From positions 3,719,721 to 3,783,720 of the forward strand of contig NZ_KB913025.1 in assembly GCF_000384075.1 (NCBI RefSeq): a DNA stretch of 64,000 bases, given 5' to 3'. Origin of the DNA: Methylovulum miyakonense HT12 (lineage in GTDB: Bacteria > Pseudomonadota > Gammaproteobacteria > Methylococcales > Methylomonadaceae). Shown here piece after piece: positions 10,996-42,871 of the stretch; position 1 is the first letter of the stretch; each line of letters starts with the position of its first letter. The position numbers and the translations under genes were made by a program. Under the pieces are notes generated by a model that was not told where the DNA came from, searched no databases, and worked only from the letters and a program-made list of their open reading frames with translations.

Positions 10996-12444
10996 TTATT
11001 TATTCTCCAAGGCTTCAATTCTTTTTAGCAAAGCCATATTTATTTCTTGCTGGGATGCCAACGCTTGTTGTTGCGTCGTAATGGTTTTTTGTTGGCCCTG
11101 CATTTTTTCTTCCTGGTCATGTATCTTTTTATCCTGCTCCTGGATGGCCTTAATCATCGGTGCAAGCAGGTCGTTGTAGCGCACCGACAAGTATTTTTCA
11201 GCCGAAGCATCTTGGGTAACGATGCCGGCACTTTTATAACCTGAATCATGCAGCGTTTTCTGCAATTCCTGGGCGATGATGCCCCATTCCTTGGTCTGTT
11301 CTGAATTATTGTTGCGGATGTATTCGACAGGGCGCAGTTGGTTGATGAAGTTAAGCCCCAGCGGCAAATCGGTGATGTGGTTCTTGAGCCGTTGGTCGGA
11401 AGTCGATGTCCAGGGCACTTGCCCCTCGATAACAGTGATTGCCGTATTGCCTATCCGCACTTTGTTGGAGGTGTCGACTTTCGCTTTATAGCCGATAGCT
11501 GTCGCGTTGATAAGGTTGCCTGTGACGACATCCGCCTTATAGCCTATGGCTGTGTTAGCCTTTCCGGTGGTGTTGGAATAAAGTGCGGAGTAGCCATTGG
11601 CCGTGTTACTGATGCCTGTGCTATTGGAATAAAGCGCAAAGGTACCGTCGGCGGTATTCTGATTTCCTATGGTGTTGGCATAAAGCGCATAAGTGCCATT
11701 GACAGTATTTTCATTCCCAGTGGTGTTGGAATAAAGTGCCTGGACACCATTAGCGGTATTTCTATAGCCTATGGTATTGGCATAAAGCGCTTGGGCGCCA
11801 CTAGCTGTGTTGACATTTCCAGTACTGTTGTGGCGGAGTACGTCGCTGCCATTGGCGGTATTGAAATTTCCCGTCATATTTTCATAAAGCGCGTGCTGCC
11901 CATTGGCGGTGTTTTCAAATCCTAGCGTATTGAAATAAAGCGCAAAATATCCATTGGCGGTGTTGTTGCTGCCGTCGGTATTGCGGTTAAGCGCAAAAGC
12001 CCCATTGGCCGCGTTCCCTAATCCCGTGGTGTTGTAATAAAGCGCTTGGAAACCATTCGCAGTGTTGTCATTTCCAGAATTATTGCTCTTAAGCGCATAA
12101 CTGCCATTGGCGGTATTTCGGATTCCTGTGGTGTTGGAAGAAAGCGCAGAACCCCCATTGGCAGTGTTATCACTTCCTATCGTGTTGGAATAAAGCGCAT
12201 AAGCGCCATTGGCCGTATTATCACTTCCTGTCGTATTTGTTTTAAGGGTGTTATTGCCAAAAGCCGTGTTGTAATTTCCCGTAGTGTTTGAAAAAAGTGC
12301 GTATGTCCCATAAGCCGTGTTTTGTAATGCTTCTGACGGGGTGGCGTTCGCCATCAGCAGCGCTGCAAACAGTAAAGGGGCCAACAACGGCGCTTTGGAG
12401 CGGCCGCTTGGGTTGAGGGATTTGAAAGGGAGGGATATTTTCAT
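10996..12444 (-). CDS. Secreted repeat protein with C-terminal Peptidase_S74 intramolecular chaperone domain
   Basis: The protein has 482 residues. A signal peptide (hydrophobic 19-33, cleavage probably near 35-39) is followed by about 15 tandem 17-residue repeats of the type NTTGSDNTANGAYALYS (about 42-300). These resemble left-handed or trimeric beta-helix fibre repeats. TSTSDQRLKNHI begins near residue 347; SDxRLK marks the start of the Peptidase_S74 / endosialidase-type chaperone domain, which in studied members trimerises the fibre and cleaves itself off. Residues about 430-482 are Gln/Lys/Glu-rich and likely coiled coil. The protein is probably a trimeric surface or extracellular fibre; a phage-derived origin is possible. 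The DNA repeat unit is 51 bp. Confidence 0.8.
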   Translation of the reverse strand: MKISLPFKSLNPSGRSKAPLLAPLLFAALLMANATPSEALQNTAYGTYALFSNTTGNYNTAFGNNTLKTNTTGSDNTANGAYALYSNTIGSDNTANGGSALSSNTTGIRNTANGSYALKSNNSGNDNTANGFQALYYNTTGLGNAANGAFALNRNTDGSNNTANGYFALYFNTLGFENTANGQHALYENMTGNFNTANGSDVLRHNSTGNVNTASGAQALYANTIGYRNTANGVQALYSNTTGNENTVNGTYALYANTIGNQNTADGTFALYSNSTGISNTANGYSALYSNTTGKANTAIGYKADVVTGNLINATAIGYKAKVDTSNKVRIGNTAITVIEGQVPWTSTSDQRLKNHITDLPLGLNFINQLRPVEYIRNNNSEQTKEWGIIAQELQKTLHDSGYKSAGIVTQDASAEKYLSVRYNDLLAPMIKAIQEQDKKIHDQEEKMQGQQKTITTQQQALASQQEINMALLKRIEALENK

Positions 12445-12934
12445 GATGTCCTAAATTGATGAGGTGGATTGTTGAAATTGGAGATATGCCAGTAACCTAT
12501 TGGAAATAAAAGGCTACTTAACAACCGCCTGCTAAAAGCAAGTGGGGGGAGCGGGACACGGAGAACTAAGGCCCCCTATTGTGCCCTGCACTATCGAGTT
12601 GCTTTCTTGAACCTTGGTGCTAAAGCTAACTAAAGTAGGCTTCAGCTTAGTCTTATTGCCCGGATGGCGTTAAGGTAAATTAACCCGTGGGATAGGTCAT
12701 ATTACCCATGACAAAAAAGATAACCCAAAAAATACAGGTGATTACAGGCATCCATTGCTTATGGCTCCCTCGACGATGCAAGGCTGGCGCCCCTCAAAAT
12801 TGTACCGCGGCACTTTTCAGGAAAGGCATGATGGATAAAAGCTTTGGCCAGCCATAGAGAGAGGCAAATAGAATATTAACTTCATGTTTTATTTAAAATT
12901 TTATAGAATGACCCTTTTATCCGAGGAGATTTTA
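12445..12934. other. Intergenic region between divergent genes
   Basis: About 490 bases probably hold both promoters. The 5' side of the S74 gene is A+T-rich and the last 60 bases before 12935 are strongly so. A 49-codon frame from 12708 lacks a ribosome site and family resemblance and is not called. Confidence 0.4.
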
Positions 12935-13624
12935 ATGGACACCCACTTAGCACTAAATTACCCGACAACAGAACCTGGCATTACCTTAGCCGGGAATTGT
13001 GGTTATGACATTCAAGATGGCCGCGTCATCATCACCATTGCCGAAATTGCCAATAACCGTGATGCCGGCAACATCAGCGGCACGCTTGCCGTTGAATTGT
13101 GGGCATTGCCTCAACCGTATTGGGGAGGCGATTTTAATGGCTTGGCCTTGGCTGGCAACAGCATAGGCGAACTTTATGGACAGTATTTTCTAGCGGATTG
13201 CCGTTATGAAATGCCTTTTCAGCAACCCGGCGACGGCACCTGGTATCTGACGCTGATGTTACGGGAATGGACTGAAGCAGGCTATATCACCCGGGATCAT
13301 ATCAATTTTGCAGTGCCTTATATGGTTAGCACCAAACCTACCGTGGTGCGTAGCGATGAAAGCAATATCATCAATGTCATTTTTGCCGACAATAAAAAGC
13401 CACCAACCGCTAAAACGGCTAAAAAAATCAAGCCAAAACAGCCAGCCTCCGTCTCACTAAACCAAGCCAGTTTGGAAGAGATTGAGGCATTGAAAGGCAT
13501 TTCCAAGAAACTGGCGGAAAACATCGTTTCTGAACGTCCGTTTGAATCCTTAGACGAAGTGCTTAAAGTGAAAGGGATAGGTTCGAGGTTATTGGACAAG
13601 ATACGCCAATTCATCACGCTCTGA
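12935..13624 (+). CDS. Hypothetical protein with C-terminal helix-hairpin-helix (ComEA-like) domain
   Basis: The protein has 229 residues. The ATG at 12935 is chosen because GAGGAGA lies 6 bases before it; an in-frame ATG further upstream lacks such a site. Residues 1-130 form a compact beta-rich region of unknown family. A Lys/Pro/Ala linker (KPPTAKTAKKIKPKQP) leads to VSLNQASLEEIEALKGISKK and VLKVKGIGSRLLDKI. These are two helix-hairpin-helix motifs with the NxAxxxEL/I pattern of ComEA and PsbU-type domains, which usually bind DNA non-specifically. There is no signal peptide, so it is probably cytoplasmic. Function is unknown. Confidence 0.75.
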   Translation: MDTHLALNYPTTEPGITLAGNCGYDIQDGRVIITIAEIANNRDAGNISGTLAVELWALPQPYWGGDFNGLALAGNSIGELYGQYFLADCRYEMPFQQPGDGTWYLTLMLREWTEAGYITRDHINFAVPYMVSTKPTVVRSDESNIINVIFADNKKPPTAKTAKKIKPKQPASVSLNQASLEEIEALKGISKKLAENIVSERPFESLDEVLKVKGIGSRLLDKIRQFITL

Positions 13625-13659
13625 CCCGTCAGTTTTTTGAAGCCTGTTAAGGTTTTTGT

Positions 13660-15519
13660 GTGTTTTTAAGCCCGCCAAAACAATTGCCGCTTATCTTGTT
13701 TGTTATGTTGTGGGGGCTGCAACTATGCCTGGCAAATGTGCTGGCCGCAGACAAACCGCTAGACGCCAGCCAAGTGCTGCACTCGCCCGTTTCATTAACG
13801 GAATATGTTGCCGTGCTGGAAGACCCTAGCACAACGCTCACCTTAGCTGAGGTGCAAAAGCCCCCTGCCGCAAACCGTTTTAACGCAGGCCAGCCCGCTG
13901 CCGAGGCCTTGAGTTATGGTTTGACGGCTTCAGCCTATTGGCTGCGTTTGACCTTGCGCAATAGCGGCAAGCTAGCCATTGAACGGATGCTGGAAATTAG
14001 CGAAGCGGGGCTTTCGGATGTCCGGTTTTATCAACCGGACGCCCATGGCGTTTATCAGGCCACCGTGACCGGCATGGCCATGCCCTTCGCTACCCGGCCC
14101 TACAAAAACCATAACTTCGTTTTTCCTGTATCCCTGCCGCCCCAATCAGACCAAACTATCTACATTAGGATCCAATCCAAAGCGCCAACCATCATCCCGG
14201 CAAGATTATGGGCGCCGCAGGCATTCCACGCCCATGAGCGGGATGATTATCTTGTCCAAGCCTGGTATTTTGGCATGGTGAGCGCAATGCTCTTGTTTAA
14301 CCTGCTGCTGTTCATTTCGCTGCGCGATGTCATCTACTTATTGTATGTCGGTAGTTGTTTGTGTGTGGCGCTGTCCATTGCCGCCTTAAATGGCCTGTTC
14401 AAAGAATTCATAGTCCCTGACTCCTCTTTCTGGCTGGACAATTCTGTCATCACGATGGGGAACCTGTCCTTTTCGGCGTTCTTCATTTTTATGAGGCAGA
14501 TGCTCAACACCCGGCTAGTGGCCCCAATGCCCGACCGGCTGATTAAGCTAGCCATTGGCTTTTATTTGATTTTTTTATGGGTTGGGCATGAAGTGCCGTT
14601 ACAAGCTATTTATAAGCTTACCTTGCCAATCAATGTATTCTCCATCGCTTTGATTATTTGGACGTGCTTGTTCTGTGTCTATAAGCGGCAACGTAGCGCC
14701 TACTTTTTCTTAGTGGCCTTTTTTGTTTTTATATTGGGTCTGTTGGCGACGATATTGAGGGGCATGGGGGTCTTGCCCACCACCACCATCACCATCTACA
14801 GCGTGCAAGTCGGTTCAGTGTTGGAAATGCTGCTGTTGGCGTTTGCCTTGGCGGACCGTTTTAATAGGATGCGCAAAGACAAGGAAATGGCCCAACTGGC
14901 CTTGCTCGAAAACATGAAGGAATCGGAACTCGATTTGCAACTACGCGTGATGGAACGTACGCTTGAGCTGCAAAGGGCCAATAAAAAACTCGAAGCCTTA
15001 AGCACAACCGATGGTTTGACCGGCATTGCCAACCGCCGCCATTTCGATGACGTGCTGGCAAGCGAGTGGCTTCGCGCCGAACGCTCGGGGCTGCCTGTCG
15101 CTTTAGCCCTGTGTGATGTGGACTGGTTTAAAAAATATAACGACCGCTACGGCCATCAGATGGGCGACGAGTGCCTAAAAAAAGTGGCCAAGGTCTTGGC
15201 GGACACCGTCTGCCGTGAAGGCGATCTGGTGGCGCGTTATGGCGGGGAGGAATTTGCGTTCATTGCGCCCGCCACGGATACGGTGGCGGCGTTCAAGATG
15301 GCGCAGGACATTTGCAAAAGGTTTCAAGAATTGGCCTTACCTCACGAATTGTCCGATTTCGGTTTCGTCACCATCAGTATTGGCGTGACGGCAATCATCC
15401 CCAAACCCGGCCTAGAACCCGATAGCCTGATAAAAACCGCAGATGAGGCATTGTACCGGGCCAAAAAACAGGGGCGCAACCAAGTCTATCCAGGGGGAAT
15501 TGGCGGCACTTGGCCATGA
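13660..15519 (+). CDS. Membrane diguanylate cyclase, 7TMR-DISM sensor plus GGDEF domain
   Basis: The protein has 619 residues and starts at GTG 13660, with AAGG 7 bases upstream. A signal peptide or first helix (about 8-28) precedes a periplasmic 7TMR-DISM extracellular domain (about 40-185, containing SAYWLRLTLRN). Seven membrane helices follow (about 200-400), then a coiled segment and a GGDEF domain. The active site is GGEEF at 528-532. The inhibitory I-site RxxD (R519-D522) lies five residues upstream, so c-di-GMP product inhibition is expected. The catalytic metal aspartate lies in LCDVDWFKKYND. There is no EAL domain. It is probably a sensor of a carbohydrate or small ligand that makes c-di-GMP. 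Confidence 0.9.
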   Translation: MFLSPPKQLPLILFVMLWGLQLCLANVLAADKPLDASQVLHSPVSLTEYVAVLEDPSTTLTLAEVQKPPAANRFNAGQPAAEALSYGLTASAYWLRLTLRNSGKLAIERMLEISEAGLSDVRFYQPDAHGVYQATVTGMAMPFATRPYKNHNFVFPVSLPPQSDQTIYIRIQSKAPTIIPARLWAPQAFHAHERDDYLVQAWYFGMVSAMLLFNLLLFISLRDVIYLLYVGSCLCVALSIAALNGLFKEFIVPDSSFWLDNSVITMGNLSFSAFFIFMRQMLNTRLVAPMPDRLIKLAIGFYLIFLWVGHEVPLQAIYKLTLPINVFSIALIIWTCLFCVYKRQRSAYFFLVAFFVFILGLLATILRGMGVLPTTTITIYSVQVGSVLEMLLLAFALADRFNRMRKDKEMAQLALLENMKESELDLQLRVMERTLELQRANKKLEALSTTDGLTGIANRRHFDDVLASEWLRAERSGLPVALALCDVDWFKKYNDRYGHQMGDECLKKVAKVLADTVCREGDLVARYGGEEFAFIAPATDTVAAFKMAQDICKRFQELALPHELSDFGFVTISIGVTAIIPKPGLEPDSLIKTADEALYRAKKQGRNQVYPGGIGGTWP

Positions 15520-37522: not shown

Positions 37523-37580
37523 TATTTCATCGTGTTACGTTACTGAGTAAATTTACTCAGTAACGTAACACGATGAAATA
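37523..37580. repeat. Perfect 58-bp palindrome covering the start codon of the next gene
   Basis: Every base pairs about the centre at 37551/37552, with no loop and no mismatch; pairing breaks at 37522/37581. The inner part contains TTACTGAGTAAATTTACTCA. The ATG of the ATPase gene (37573-37575) and its second codon lie inside the right arm, and an in-frame stop lies within the same arm. In RNA it could form a 27- to 29-bp hairpin that buries the start codon. No ribosome site is visible before that ATG. Confidence 0.9.
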
Positions 37581-38856
37581 CCAAAGACCACAAGAAGATT
37601 TGCTTAAATCGCGGCTTAGCGACCCCGTGCATTTTATTAATCTGCTGGCAGGCCCAAGACAAGTTGGCAAAACCACGATCATTCGAGATCTTATCTCGCA
37701 AATCCAAGCTCAAGGTTACTACATCTCAGTTGATGAAGAGCCAGCCATAGGCAATGAAATTTATAATTTTGCCGGTAAACCAGCTAGTGTTTCGCCACCT
37801 CAAAGAAAGGATGCAACTTGGCTGCAATTTCAGTGGCAAGAAGCCAGGAACCGCACAGCACAATGGTTAAAGTCTAGGCAAAATACTGACAAAAACGGGC
37901 AAATTGCCGCCTTCGTCTTTGCTATCGACGAAGTCCAGAAAATCGAACAGTGGTCAGACATAGTCAAAGGCCTATGGGATGCCGATAGGACTAATGGTGT
38001 TCCTATGCATGTTGTGTTGCTCGGCTCCGCACCATTGCTCATGCAAAAAGGTTTGTCCGAAAGCCTAGCCGGGCGCTATGAAGTGATTCCTGTCAGTCAC
38101 TGGGGATTCACCGAAATGCAGCAAGCTTTTGGTTTTAGCTTGGAGCAATACATTTATTTCGGCGGTTATCCCGGCAGTGCTTGGCTAATCAAAGATGAAA
38201 CACGCTGGCGACGCTATGTGAGGGAAAGCTTGATCCAACCCAATATTGAAAAAGATATTTTGCAAATGGTGCGCATCAAAAATCCTATGCTGCTGAAACA
38301 ACTTTTTGAATTGGGTTGTCATTATTCAGGCCAGGAATTGTCACTGACCAAAATGATTGATGCTATCAACGAAGCAAAACACACCGAAACCCTGGCAGAT
38401 TATCTGCATTTATTAGCTGAAGCGAAATTACTAACCGGATTACAAAAATATGCGGCGCAGGAAGTCCGTAAACGCAACTCAGCACCAAAGTTTCACGTCT
38501 TCAACACAGCTTTAATGTCAGCAATTCAGGATTACAGCTTTGCCGAAGCGCAGGCTGATAGGAGTTATTGGGGCAGATTGGTGGAAAGCTGCGTCGGCGC
38601 ACATCTACTTAATACCAGCTACGAAGATACCAAACTTTATTACTGGCGTGAAGGCAATCAGGAAGTCGATTTCATATTGGCTAAAGGGAGAAAATTGGCC
38701 GCCATAGAAGTGAAAAGTGCGCCAAATCCGGTGTTGTCAAAAGGCCTGGACGTATTTGGCCAAAAGTACAGCCATGCCAAAAAGATTTTAGTGGGGAATG
38801 GCGGCGTAGCACTGGCGGAATTTTTATCTCAGCCTGCCGATTATTGGTTGGATTAG
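37573..38856 (+). CDS. AAA_14 ATPase with C-terminal DUF4143 (PD-(D/E)XK-like) domain
   Basis: The protein has 427 residues. Walker A is GPRQVGKTT (27-35) and Walker B is FVFAIDEVQ (D119, E120), followed by the sensor-like LLGSAPLLM and the FGGYPG motif usual in this family. The C-terminal DUF4143 region has VDFIL and AIEVKS (D366, E379, K381), a nuclease-like core pattern. Such proteins are common in bacteria and archaea with poorly known function. The start is fixed by an in-frame stop 9 bases upstream and lies inside the 58-bp palindrome. The gap to the next gene is 4 bases, so the two form an operon. Base composition is A+T-rich compared with flanking genes. Confidence 0.85.
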   Translation: MKYQRPQEDLLKSRLSDPVHFINLLAGPRQVGKTTIIRDLISQIQAQGYYISVDEEPAIGNEIYNFAGKPASVSPPQRKDATWLQFQWQEARNRTAQWLKSRQNTDKNGQIAAFVFAIDEVQKIEQWSDIVKGLWDADRTNGVPMHVVLLGSAPLLMQKGLSESLAGRYEVIPVSHWGFTEMQQAFGFSLEQYIYFGGYPGSAWLIKDETRWRRYVRESLIQPNIEKDILQMVRIKNPMLLKQLFELGCHYSGQELSLTKMIDAINEAKHTETLADYLHLLAEAKLLTGLQKYAAQEVRKRNSAPKFHVFNTALMSAIQDYSFAEAQADRSYWGRLVESCVGAHLLNTSYEDTKLYYWREGNQEVDFILAKGRKLAAIEVKSAPNPVLSKGLDVFGQKYSHAKKILVGNGGVALAEFLSQPADYWLD

Positions 38857-38860
38857 AGTT

Positions 38861-41800
38861 ATGTACCACGTTCCGCGTACCTGCACCGAAAAGAAAATGG
38901 ATGATGGGGAAGAGAGCCTTCCAAGTCCAATTACCAACTTTAGGGAGCGGGCAGCTTATGTATTATTAGGCGAACCGGGGGCAGGGAAATCAAGCCTGTT
39001 CATAGAAGAAGCGCAAAACACCGACAACGGCTTTTACATTTCCGCCCGTGACTTCATTGATCTCGACCGCAACGAATGGCGGGATAAAACCTTATTTATC
39101 GATGGCCTGGATGAAGCAAGGGCGGGCAAAGACGACGCCCGCACACCGTTAGGCGCAATTCGCAGCAAACTCAGTCAATTAGGCTGTCAATATTTCCGTA
39201 TTTCCTGCCGGGAAGCCGACTGGCTGGGCTCACCCGATGCCAATGATTTAGCCCGAATCAGCCCTAACCAGGCCATAACCATTCTGCATTTAAACCCGCT
39301 TAGCAGTGACGACATTGAGCAGATAATAAGCAACGATCAGCGAGTGCCTGATACAAACGGCTTTATTGAAAAAGCCGAACAATTCGGCTTGTCCGGTTTG
39401 CTAAATAACCCGCAAACCTTGGATATGTTGATTAATGCTGTCAAAGGTGGTCACGGGTGGCCGATCAGTAAACAGGAAGTTTACGAATTAGCCTGTAAAC
39501 AACTGGCATCCGAGTTTAATGACGATCATTCGGTAACACAAACAGCCACGACTCCCCAATTAATGGAAGCGGCAGGTTTTTTGTGTGCGGTACAACTTAT
39601 CGCTAACCTTTCCGGCTTCACGGAAGGCCAAGCCGGCGAAGGCCGGATTAGCCTAAGAGACTTGACCATTCCGAATGCTTTACCAATACAAGCCGCCTTA
39701 AAAACACGGTTGTTTAATAAGACCGGAAATAATGAATTCAGCTACGTGCATCGCAGCGTGGCGGAATATCTGGCGGCACAATTCATAGCAGGAAAGATAA
39801 AGCAAGGTTTGTTGATTAACCGGGTACTGGCGTTAACCAGTGGGTTTGACGGCGGCATAGTCGCGGCATTGCGTGGTTTGATGGCTTGGCTTAGTGTGCA
39901 TTCCGAACAAGCGCGCGAGCGTTTGATTGAGATTGATCCAGTCGGCGTCATCGTCAATGGCGATGCGCTGCTGTTTCCCAGATCAGCTAAATCCCAACTA
40001 TTCCAGGCCCTGATTAAGGAAGCAAAATCCACAAGCTTTCCCAATCGGGACTGGCATACCACCGCATTCTCAGCGATTACCACCAGAGATATGGCGAATG
40101 AGTTAAGCGCGGTACTCAACAACACGAGTCGTAGCAATGGCGAGCAATTTCTTTTGTACTGTTTACTAAATGGTTTGTTTTGTTCCGAACCGATAGCAAC
40201 AATTAAAGCATCATTGCTAACCATTATTCGGGACAGCTCTTATTGGGAGGGAGTACGTGGCAACGCACTGGACGCATTTCTCCACCAGTATCCCGAAGAC
40301 CTGGATAGCTTGTTACTATTGGCGGATGATATTCGACAAGGCAAAATTGAGGACACCGAAAATGGCCTTTTGGAAAATTTGCTGGATAAATTATTTCCCA
40401 CAAAAATAACGGCTTTCAACATTTTTCAATATTTACTACCACCAAAAAATAATTTCGTAATTGCTTACCGTAATTTTTGGCGAAATCTACTTCCAATGCG
40501 CTTAACAGATACTGATCTTGCCGTGGTTCTGGATCAGCTTTTTGAACTGAAAACAGATTCTCTTGGCCCTATGGGTCACAAAAAAATAGTAGGAATAATC
40601 GACACTGTGGGTCAATTATTAATACGAGGTTTGCAAATTCATGGATTAACCATTAGCTCTGAGCGCCTCTATCGCTGGTTGTCCATTGACATTAATGAAT
40701 ATAATCACTACACGCTCCCATTGGAACAGCGCCAGCAAATCAACAGTTGGCTTGACTCCCATCCTGATCGTTACCTGGCAATTATCGGTGAAGGATTAAA
40801 GCAAATAAAAACTTTTGAAAACATCTTTGGGGAAATTCGTAAAATATTTTCGCGGTTACACGATACTACTCCACCCAAAACTATTGCCCAATGGTGGCTT
40901 AATCAGGCACTCTCGGAAACTGACTTCAAATTGAGCTGTGCTTATTTTGAACAGGCATTTATAACACTGTACGACCAACAGAACGATACTGGCTTATCCC
41001 TGGATTACTTTGTTAATTGGTTAGAAGATCATCCCGAATATCTTGAAACTTATCAGCACTTAACTTATTACAATATTCCAGACTGGCGATATGAACATAT
41101 TAACTCAGAAAAAATATGGGCTGCTGAACGTGATGAGGAGCTAAACAAAAAGCTGAGCTACTTACATGAACATCAAGCACAAATTGCCGACGGTAGCGCA
41201 CCTCCGCATATTTTTAATCAGCTAGCGATAGCATTTAATCATCTTGTCCAAACAAACGGAAAATCACGCGAAGAGCGTTTGGCTGAATATCTCAACAACG
41301 ATGAAATACTTATAAACGCAGCAAAAACGGGTTTACGAAAAATACTACAACGAACCGATTTGCCAACGCCACTTGAGATATATACGTCGGCGGTGAAAAG
41401 TAAGTACCATTACATTCGCCTACCTTTTCTGGTTTGTATGGATACGCTTTATCAGGAAAATCCTGCCATGCTCGAATCATTAAGTGATGAGTTACTTAGC
41501 AAAGCGGTGGCTTTTTGTTTCGCGGAAGGTACTTCTCATGAGGCTTGGTTTAAATCGCTTTACCAGTCGAAGCCGGAATTGGTCTCGCGCTTATTCATCG
41601 ATTATGTCAGAGCGCTATTAGCCGCCAAGAGTCAATTTATTCATGGGTTGCATAATCTGGCTTATGACCCAGACTTAAAGAAAACTGCTAAGCTGACAGT
41701 TATGCCTTTACTCAATAAATATCCAGTTAGAGGCTATAAAAATCATGTTACCCACCTCAAATACTTGCTGGAAGGAGCTATTGCAGACGTAGATAAAATC

Positions 41801-42871
41801 GAATTACTGACAATGGTTGAAAAAAAACTGACTTGCAAGGGCATGGATTTAGCACAACGTATTTATTGGCTTGCTACCGGTTTGGTTATAGAGCCGAAAG
41901 TATACGAAGCTCAAGTCAAACAAACTGTTACAGGAAAAAGCCAACGTATCAATCGTTTAAGTAGCTTTCTAATCCAAATTTCCCGTTCGGATTATGACAG
42001 ATATGACTTTCCTGCTTCAACTAAAGGAATGTTGATCGAAGTATTGGCGCCACGTTGCAATCCGTTATGGCCTAGAAGCGGCACTGTGACGCCCGCAACG
42101 GAAGAAAAAGACTATGTTCAGTTTTTACTTAACGGCCTTGCCTACAATCCCAGCGAAGAGAGTGCAGCAATTTTGGCCGATTTACTGAGCCAGCCAAAAT
42201 TAAGTGCTTGGCATACTCAAATTCAGAGCGCCCAACAAACTCAACAGCTCAGCCGAAGAGAAGCATTGTTCAAACATCCCAATGCGGCGCAAGTCATCAA
42301 TACACTCAGCAATTTAAAACCAGCTAATGTTGCTGATTTGGCGGCACTTACTGTTGATTGCTTGGAACAGCTGGCAGCAGAAATACACGGCAGCAGTAAC
42401 GATAGCTATAAACAATTTTGGAATGTCGATAGCAATGGTAAACCCACAAATTATAGGGTTGAGAATATTTGTCGTGATTATTTATACGGGAAGCTAAAGG
42501 CTTCTTTGGCAAAGTATGATATTCAGGTTGATCTGGAGGTACATCATGCCAAAGCCAAACGCGCTGACCTAGAACTATCATTTATTCGTGACGGCAAAAC
42601 CTTAAAGTTTCCCGTCGAAATAAAATGCGATTACAACAAGGATCTCTGGAAAACCATTCATGAGCAACTTATCCCGTTTTATACAATCGCTCCGGAAACC
42701 GAAGGCCGAGGTCTATTTTTGGTCATTTGGTTTAAATTGCCGACTCATCCTCAAGGCCTGCCTCCGCCAACTTCAACGGAACAGTTAGCCGCGATGCTTA
42801 AAAATACAATGACCCCACAGGAACAAAAACTGATTGATGTTTTTGTACTGGATGTTTCAAAAAAACACTAA
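38861..42871 (+). CDS. NACHT-like STAND NTPase with C-terminal PD-(D/E)XK-like motif, candidate defence protein
   Basis: The protein has 1336 residues. Walker A is GEPGAGKSS (37-45) and Walker B is LFIDGLDEA (78-86), with the small-residue/acid pattern of NACHT NTPases; FRISCRE (112-118) looks like sensor 1. YVHRSVAEYLAA (295-306) is the winged-helix signature that ends a NACHT module. Residues about 320-1150 form a long alpha-helical region with no family I recognise, suggestive of a solenoid sensor. Near the C-terminus ADLELSF and FPVEIKCDY give D1236, E1253 and K1255, a PD-(D/E)XK-like nuclease pattern. NTPase-first and nuclease-last is the reverse of most Avs proteins. It follows the DUF4143 ATPase gene by 4 bases. 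The antiphage role is inference. Confidence 0.75.
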   Translation: MYHVPRTCTEKKMDDGEESLPSPITNFRERAAYVLLGEPGAGKSSLFIEEAQNTDNGFYISARDFIDLDRNEWRDKTLFIDGLDEARAGKDDARTPLGAIRSKLSQLGCQYFRISCREADWLGSPDANDLARISPNQAITILHLNPLSSDDIEQIISNDQRVPDTNGFIEKAEQFGLSGLLNNPQTLDMLINAVKGGHGWPISKQEVYELACKQLASEFNDDHSVTQTATTPQLMEAAGFLCAVQLIANLSGFTEGQAGEGRISLRDLTIPNALPIQAALKTRLFNKTGNNEFSYVHRSVAEYLAAQFIAGKIKQGLLINRVLALTSGFDGGIVAALRGLMAWLSVHSEQARERLIEIDPVGVIVNGDALLFPRSAKSQLFQALIKEAKSTSFPNRDWHTTAFSAITTRDMANELSAVLNNTSRSNGEQFLLYCLLNGLFCSEPIATIKASLLTIIRDSSYWEGVRGNALDAFLHQYPEDLDSLLLLADDIRQGKIEDTENGLLENLLDKLFPTKITAFNIFQYLLPPKNNFVIAYRNFWRNLLPMRLTDTDLAVVLDQLFELKTDSLGPMGHKKIVGIIDTVGQLLIRGLQIHGLTISSERLYRWLSIDINEYNHYTLPLEQRQQINSWLDSHPDRYLAIIGEGLKQIKTFENIFGEIRKIFSRLHDTTPPKTIAQWWLNQALSETDFKLSCAYFEQAFITLYDQQNDTGLSLDYFVNWLEDHPEYLETYQHLTYYNIPDWRYEHINSEKIWAAERDEELNKKLSYLHEHQAQIADGSAPPHIFNQLAIAFNHLVQTNGKSREERLAEYLNNDEILINAAKTGLRKILQRTDLPTPLEIYTSAVKSKYHYIRLPFLVCMDTLYQENPAMLESLSDELLSKAVAFCFAEGTSHEAWFKSLYQSKPELVSRLFIDYVRALLAAKSQFIHGLHNLAYDPDLKKTAKLTVMPLLNKYPVRGYKNHVTHLKYLLEGAIADVDKIELLTMVEKKLTCKGMDLAQRIYWLATGLVIEPKVYEAQVKQTVTGKSQRINRLSSFLIQISRSDYDRYDFPASTKGMLIEVLAPRCNPLWPRSGTVTPATEEKDYVQFLLNGLAYNPSEESAAILADLLSQPKLSAWHTQIQSAQQTQQLSRREALFKHPNAAQVINTLSNLKPANVADLAALTVDCLEQLAAEIHGSSNDSYKQFWNVDSNGKPTNYRVENICRDYLYGKLKASLAKYDIQVDLEVHHAKAKRADLELSFIRDGKTLKFPVEIKCDYNKDLWKTIHEQLIPFYTIAPETEGRGLFLVIWFKLPTHPQGLPPPTSTEQLAAMLKNTMTPQEQKLIDVFVLDVSKKH

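Follow-up and report, generated by a model that had tools for sequence, protein, structure and literature searches.

The question raised by this locus is what two adjacent genes of Methylovulum miyakonense HT12, an AAA_14-DUF4143 ATPase and a giant NACHT protein, do together. They lie in a stretch of 64,000 nucleotides (contig NZ_KB913025.1, positions 3,719,721 to 3,783,720; hereafter the window), where open reading frame (ORF) A (37573–38856, + strand, 427 aa) is followed on the same strand, after a gap of 4 bases, by ORF B (38861–42871, + strand, 1336 aa). These coordinates bear out the two-gene arrangement reported in a preliminary description made from the sequence alone. The reading that we favour, and to which we assign an even chance, is that of a two-gene antiphage operon in which B would be a NACHT sensor-nuclease, whereas A would bind a palindrome at its own start and control the operon.

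Comparison across genomes showed that the A–B pair is real and constitutes a two-gene operon shared widely among bacteria. A named-genome scan yielded 77 loci; with locus L163 added, 75 had room upstream of B and 3 lay at contig ends. A, or a piece of it, immediately precedes B in 59 of these 75 loci and was missing in 16, a proportion that describes the near clade, as the contig sample comprised the best 80 of 113 matches and the queries were mostly paired proteins. L113, whose B ORF overlaps A, was counted as paired, and five of the 59 loci show only a cut, split, masked or degraded piece of A (L063, L078, L090, L107 and L123). The distance between the two genes falls between −4 and +5 bp in 38 of 58 measured cases, and paired rows occur in Pseudomonadota, Actinomycetota, Gemmatimonadota, Bacteroidota, Chlorobiota and Thermodesulfobacteriota. 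Co-occurrence of the homologues, on which the preliminary description had staked its proposal, is thus what was found. In the window's own family, 49 of 237 genomes contain a match of the type to which B belongs (EruA, described below), above cut-off in 12, and A stands directly upstream in 13 of the 20 family loci fetched with their flanks. Among family loci without a visible A, L035 ends at a contig edge, L032, L033 and L036 form a separate clade in which no A was seen (L033 has only ~200 bp upstream), and L018 and L048 are fragments that come from a single genome. At L037/L055, an IS110-type transposase, recognized by eye, occupies the place of A before a full-length EruA gene, and no A occurs within 16 kb upstream of L037.

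In the midpoint-rooted B tree (71 rows), one clade contains solo copies only (five, plus one unscored), the remainder comprises 54 paired and nine solo rows, and pairing changes state 5 times, compared with 12.9 in shuffles. The 54 paired A proteins form one clade (Shimodaira–Hasegawa-like approximate likelihood ratio test, 98), apart from eight solitary relatives of the PDC-S01 type (described below). A is the slower partner, with a mean identity of 0.57 against 0.36 for B; among family relatives of the same clade, identity to the window's copy amounts to 82–94% for A and 54–79% for B. The identity matrices of A and B are strongly correlated (Mantel r 0.93, 50 pairs; reached by 0 of 1000 permutations). 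In all these counts, related loci are not independent. Chance adjacency, or hitch-hiking within a variable island by genes that do not function together, would account for the B loci without A and for the solitary A genes of the same subfamily, most of which lack B. This explanation is very improbable: the genes share a strand, keep the narrow spacing given above across six phyla and involve a single A clade, and we rejected it on the 59 of 75 pairing and that single clade. As a separate observation, one viral-contig locus (L376) also carries the A–B pair.

The identity of B is given by NCBIfam, in which it matches EruA (NF058535, ‘NACHT domain-containing antiphage protein’) over the full profile (1–1318 of 1318) with a score of 1157.7 bits (cut-off, 1000); seven more distant members scored 744–992 bits (five, below the cut-off) or 1061 and 1146 bits (two, above it). 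The preliminary description, which knew of no named system, was therefore wrong for B, and A likewise matches a catalogued candidate, PDC-S01 of PADLOC. The locus resembles EruA in the full-length match of B above the curated cut-off and differs in its upstream ATPase, for which no NCBIfam model scored above cut-off. A partial match of B to HyoA (NF058534) reached 151.7 bits, far under the cut-off of 1200. Pfam yielded no match to B above cut-off and no NACHT domain at an expectation value (E) of up to 1, and the PDB contains no sequence related to full-length B at an E of 1 or below. The NACHT label has its source in NCBIfam, not in Pfam.

The NACHT NTPase domain of B spans residues 28–310 (38942–39790, + strand), with Walker A GEPGAGKS at 37–44, Walker B FIDGLDE at 79–85 and the motif HRSVAEYLAA, previously reported as HRSxxEYLAA. 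All three hallmarks of signal transduction ATPases with numerous domains (STAND) of the NACHT type, namely Walker A, Walker B and the HRSxAEYLA winged-helix motif, are therefore present, and K43, D81, E85, H297 and E302 are invariant in the 70 of 71 rows readable there. An AlphaFold2 model of residues 320–1336, built from 65 sequences with a predicted local distance difference test (pLDDT) score of 89.1, suggests that the following residues, ~320–1179 (39818–42397, + strand), form an alpha-helical solenoid of HEAT/importin-like type. The best Foldseek matches of the model were helical-repeat proteins (karyopherins and CAND1 among them) with low template modelling (TM) scores of 0.13–0.21, covering the solenoid only. 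The solenoid includes the least conserved parts of B, with dips at residues 501–800.

The C-terminal domain of B (residues 1201–1336; 42461–42868, + strand) is predicted to be PD-(D/E)XK-like. Its modelled core, with secondary structure assigned by eye, runs helix-strand-strand-strand-helix-strand, in apparent agreement with the alpha-beta-beta-beta-alpha-beta core of that fold; D1236 would immediately precede strand 2, strand 3 would contain E1253 and K1255, and Q1269 would belong to the helix that follows. E1226, E1253, K1255 and Q1269 are present in 68 of 68 readable rows and D1236 in 67. The one deviating row, an EruA homologue at L090:5851–9870, has A in place of the motif D. The helical region and nuclease-like tail anticipated in the preliminary description, including D1236, E1253 and K1255, thus recur in the model and the alignment at the places it named, and the structure model that it had proposed as a check returned a PD-(D/E)XK-like topology. 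The NTPase-solenoid-nuclease order to which it drew attention is indeed unusual. According to the accessible part of PMC12169576, bacterial NACHT proteins usually carry an N-terminal effector and a C-terminal sensor, whereas in B the NACHT domain begins near residue 28 and the nuclease-like domain is C-terminal. bNACHT25 and bNACHT32, NLR (nucleotide-binding leucine-rich repeat)-related proteins with a DNase effector, are described in the same accessible text as combining NACHT with a PD-(D/E)XK nuclease, as B appears to do, but with the nuclease N-terminal and the sensor C-terminal.

ORF A matches Pfam AAA_14 (8.2e-20) and DUF4143 (1.9e-27), and PADLOC assigns it to PDC-S01 through the subfamily profile PDLC04791 (541.8 bits, 1.8e-163). 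PDC-S01 (AAA_14-DUF4143) is listed as a one-gene system; here, one of its clades constitutes the first gene of an EruA operon, although solitary relatives exist as well. For full-length A, too, the PDB yielded no related sequence (E of 1 or below). Its AlphaFold2 model (49 sequences; mean pLDDT 87.5, predicted TM-score 0.87) consists of an AAA domain, a predicted winged-helix-like segment and a nuclease-like C-terminal alpha/beta domain. The segment (residues 238–309; 38284–38499, + strand), tentatively assigned from topology, comprises helices at 238–250, 258–264 and 271–283 and strands at 287–290 and 306–309. The putative PD-(D/E)XK-like domain (residues 330–427; 38560–38853, + strand) has strands at 354–360, 363–371 and 374–381 and places D366, E379 and K381, the residues named in the preliminary description, on neighbouring strands. 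Together with K33, D119 and E120, these three are invariant in 53 of 53 A proteins; in neither protein are the named residues a product of chance. Foldseek ranked the archaeal AAA+ ATPases 2qen (E 8e-9) and 2fna (3e-8) first, followed by a plant NLR and ORC/Cdc6 proteins.

A further element, absent from the preliminary description, lies at the start of A. Positions 37523–37580 form a perfect 58-bp palindrome of two 29-nt arms without a gap, built around the core TGAGTAAATTTACTCA and overlapping the A start codon, which we propose as an operator. The core pattern TGAGT-N6-ACTCA precedes 41 of the 55 paired A genes, 30 of these 41 lying outside Methylococcaceae by our reading, and 5 of the 11 solitary A genes. 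It was found upstream of none of 17 solo B genes (a set that includes L113, paired elsewhere in our counts), none of 58 paired-B starts and 1 of 1179 control ORF starts. As these control windows include spurious ORFs, dinucleotide shuffles served instead for the inverted-repeat test, in which long repeats (score of at least 12) occurred in 27 of 54 such A windows and in 1 of 2160 shuffles. If only the score is considered, the same threshold was reached by 4 of the 17 solo B windows (with GC-rich, terminator-like repeats and without the core) and by 1 of 11 solitary A windows. Outside the core, 379 of 552 cells are complementary at pairs 9–20 counted from the centre, a figure inflated by related sequences; the shuffled mean is 248, and 0 of 500 shuffles came up to the observed value. 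Start codons were set mechanically, and some missing palindromes (L059) may reflect mis-set starts. Collectively, the palindrome goes with A, not with B. Most simply, it would be bound by A, which would control its own gene and, in this clade, also the putative NACHT nuclease encoded behind it.

Two rejected candidates concern the wider occurrence of the core. A regulon under a global factor is disfavoured because the genome contains the loose core pattern only twice, once at the palindrome of A, and no more often than its reversed control. A more stringent version of the pattern, to which the window has no match, occurs at 6 places in 6 of the 369 genomes of the class surveyed, compared with 1 for the reversed control; three lie right before an A gene, one, at the end of a contig, has a flank resembling that of one of these three, and two are away from A. 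The core as a phage target was likewise set aside: TGAGTAAATTTACTCA occurs in 83 viral-contig stretches, and the DNA fetched for these 83 loci contained neither A nor B.

The position and symmetry of the palindrome also suggest roles in which it is not an operator. An mRNA hairpin that hides the A start codon would suit the overlap with that codon and the palindrome centre, which in most core-bearing relatives lies 13–26 nt before the chosen start. The G-T share of arm mismatches, 0.215 against 0.164 in shuffles (sd 0.017), leaves some room for such an RNA role. However, the 31 G-T mismatches barely outnumber the 25 A-C mismatches, as DNA transitions would give; this speaks for DNA, with no clear preference for G-U wobble, and the core is kept in sequence and not in pairing alone. 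We consider the hairpin improbable. The palindrome could also be a substrate, with the DUF4143 nuclease of A recognizing the extruded cruciform, a four-way junction, and acting as a branched-DNA sensor that licenses B. Perfect 29-nt arms without a loop would favour this role, and the C-terminal profile of A has a weak match over its motif to the archaeal Holliday junction resolvase 1gef. That match is non-significant (E 1.1, fifth of six listed), and in several relatives (L068, L070, L076 and L091) the best repeat does not extend beyond the 16-bp core, which would not suffice to form a stable cruciform. This role, too, appears unlikely.

Long inverted repeats of different sequence also precede other DUF4143 genes. 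In a first sample they were found before 5 of 20, two of the five having the same sequence, and in the larger one before 17 of 60, against 1 of 39 local controls; the 60 genes were hand-picked from the best rows, up to a few per genome, and the control is small. Fourteen of the 17 repeats are centred within 60 bp before the start and the other three lie 87–101 bp before it. DUF4143 genes of other subfamilies with repeats of their own were observed at L323, L319, L322, L369, L326, L324, L358 and L362, and some of these repeats share sub-cores such as AGTCTTGACT or GGAGTTnAACTCC.

These data bear on a further explanation, in which A would be a working part of an immune complex, a second sensor or nuclease joined to B, and the palindrome would be bound by another factor or would shape the promoter. 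The invariance of the A ATPase and D/ExK residues goes beyond the needs of a plain repressor, the slower evolution of A points the same way, and the accessible part of PMC12169576 indicates that the products of antiphage operons can cooperate. On the other hand, the palindrome accompanies A even where B is lacking (the solitary A genes above), the core is not a genome-wide site, and the different long repeats of different DUF4143 subfamilies are most easily understood if A reads the palindrome. We regard a role of A in such a complex as possible, though on balance doubtful.

Several observations weigh against the operon with A as palindrome reader and controller of B. B occurs without A in the 16 loci mentioned above, and no A relative was found within 10 kb around B in the four plasmid loci examined (of 39 plasmid records matched); A is therefore not essential for B. 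Among the 369 genomes of the class, 14 contain a gene of the PDLC04791 type above 230 bits, and of the 13 such genes outside the window, only L163 adjoins B, eight are complete with unrelated neighbours, L158 has an internal stop and L167–L169 run off the contig. Most solitary PDC-S01 relatives within the class thus lack B alongside, and therefore A can work alone. Judged by the core pattern, the palindrome is missing from, or was not recognized at, 14 of the 55 paired A genes and 6 of the 11 solitary ones, and the G-T excess over shuffles noted above belongs here as well. The B C-terminus gave no Pfam match in 47 members (E 0.01) and no PDB match (E 10). Finally, the surroundings of paired loci contain few known defence genes: at most 4 of 103 neighbouring proteins at 22 such loci matched PADLOC families (E 1e-25).

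In two B loci without A (L074:4041–5699 and L117:8165–9802), a Schlafen-AlbA_2/HATPase_c_4 protein is encoded directly upstream of B, in a partner swap for A. We take these proteins to belong to a class of helix-turn-helix regulators, which favours the reading of A as a controller. Two of the four plasmid loci with solo relatives have known defence proteins nearby: on a Pantoea plasmid (L379) the EruA-like gene lies near an annotated anti-phage Ppl and an Abi-family protein, and on a Bradyrhizobium plasmid (L380) near a SIR2 protein. The defence role rests on the family name of B, its STAND anatomy, these two plasmid relatives and the PDC-S01 label of A.

The data show the pairing, the single clade of A, the invariance of catalytic residues in both proteins, the folds as predicted, and a palindrome that follows A and not B; for the copy in the window, we infer palindrome binding by A, repression, nuclease activity and antiphage action. 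Under the favoured reading of a two-gene antiphage operon, the winged helix of A would bind the palindrome over its own promoter or start, keeping the operon low. Upon infection, A would release the palindrome or change state through its ATPase and possibly its own nuclease. The solenoid of B probably recognizes a phage-derived or damage signal, upon which the NACHT domain would oligomerize on ATP; the PD-(D/E)XK-like domain at the C-terminus would then cut nucleic acid and stop the infected cell.

GC content across 37–43 kb is 0.40–0.49, compared with 0.50–0.62 at 33–37 kb and 0.56–0.63 at 43–48 kb, in line with the A+T-rich island noted in the preliminary description; the window contains a second lower-GC stretch at 11001–15000 (0.45–0.49). 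To the left lie genes for a glutathione S-transferase (Pfam) and an EamA-type transporter (by eye), and to the right a GntR-aminotransferase (MocR-like) gene. The genome has one EruA match and two DUF4143 genes. Orthologues of the flanking genes occur elsewhere without A and B (L182 and L191), and among six loci compared none had both flanks joined as an empty site; the pair may have arrived by insertion. The palindrome was rejected as a transposon or insertion end, since the 6.4-kb region searched holds no matching repeat at the B 3′ end.

In the literature searched, which lacks most subscription journals, we found no description of the A–B pair or of palindromes at DUF4143 genes, and no paper on the Eru/Hyo defence proteins. 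The EruA of PMC12839154 is, from the accessible part of that paper, an unrelated regulator, and DUF4143 appears in the accessible text of a paper on Thermus Argonaute. The DUF4143 family counts 9986 members in Archaea and 29,494 in Bacteria, as given in the accessible part of PMC12988326.

These findings make one clade of PDC-S01, a very common and mostly untested ‘single-gene’ candidate, one of two partners in an operon, the other being a named antiphage NACHT protein. They also give A a DNA element, the palindrome, whose binding is directly testable. More speculatively, DUF4143 ATPases of the PDC-S01 type might be palindrome-reading ATPase-nucleases, each subfamily with its private long palindrome; in the one clade wired before EruA, loss of A from the palindrome during phage attack would then report infection and switch on the NACHT nuclease. 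If private palindromes are indeed what DUF4143 proteins read, the biochemical function of a family that numbers tens of thousands of copies would be open to test.

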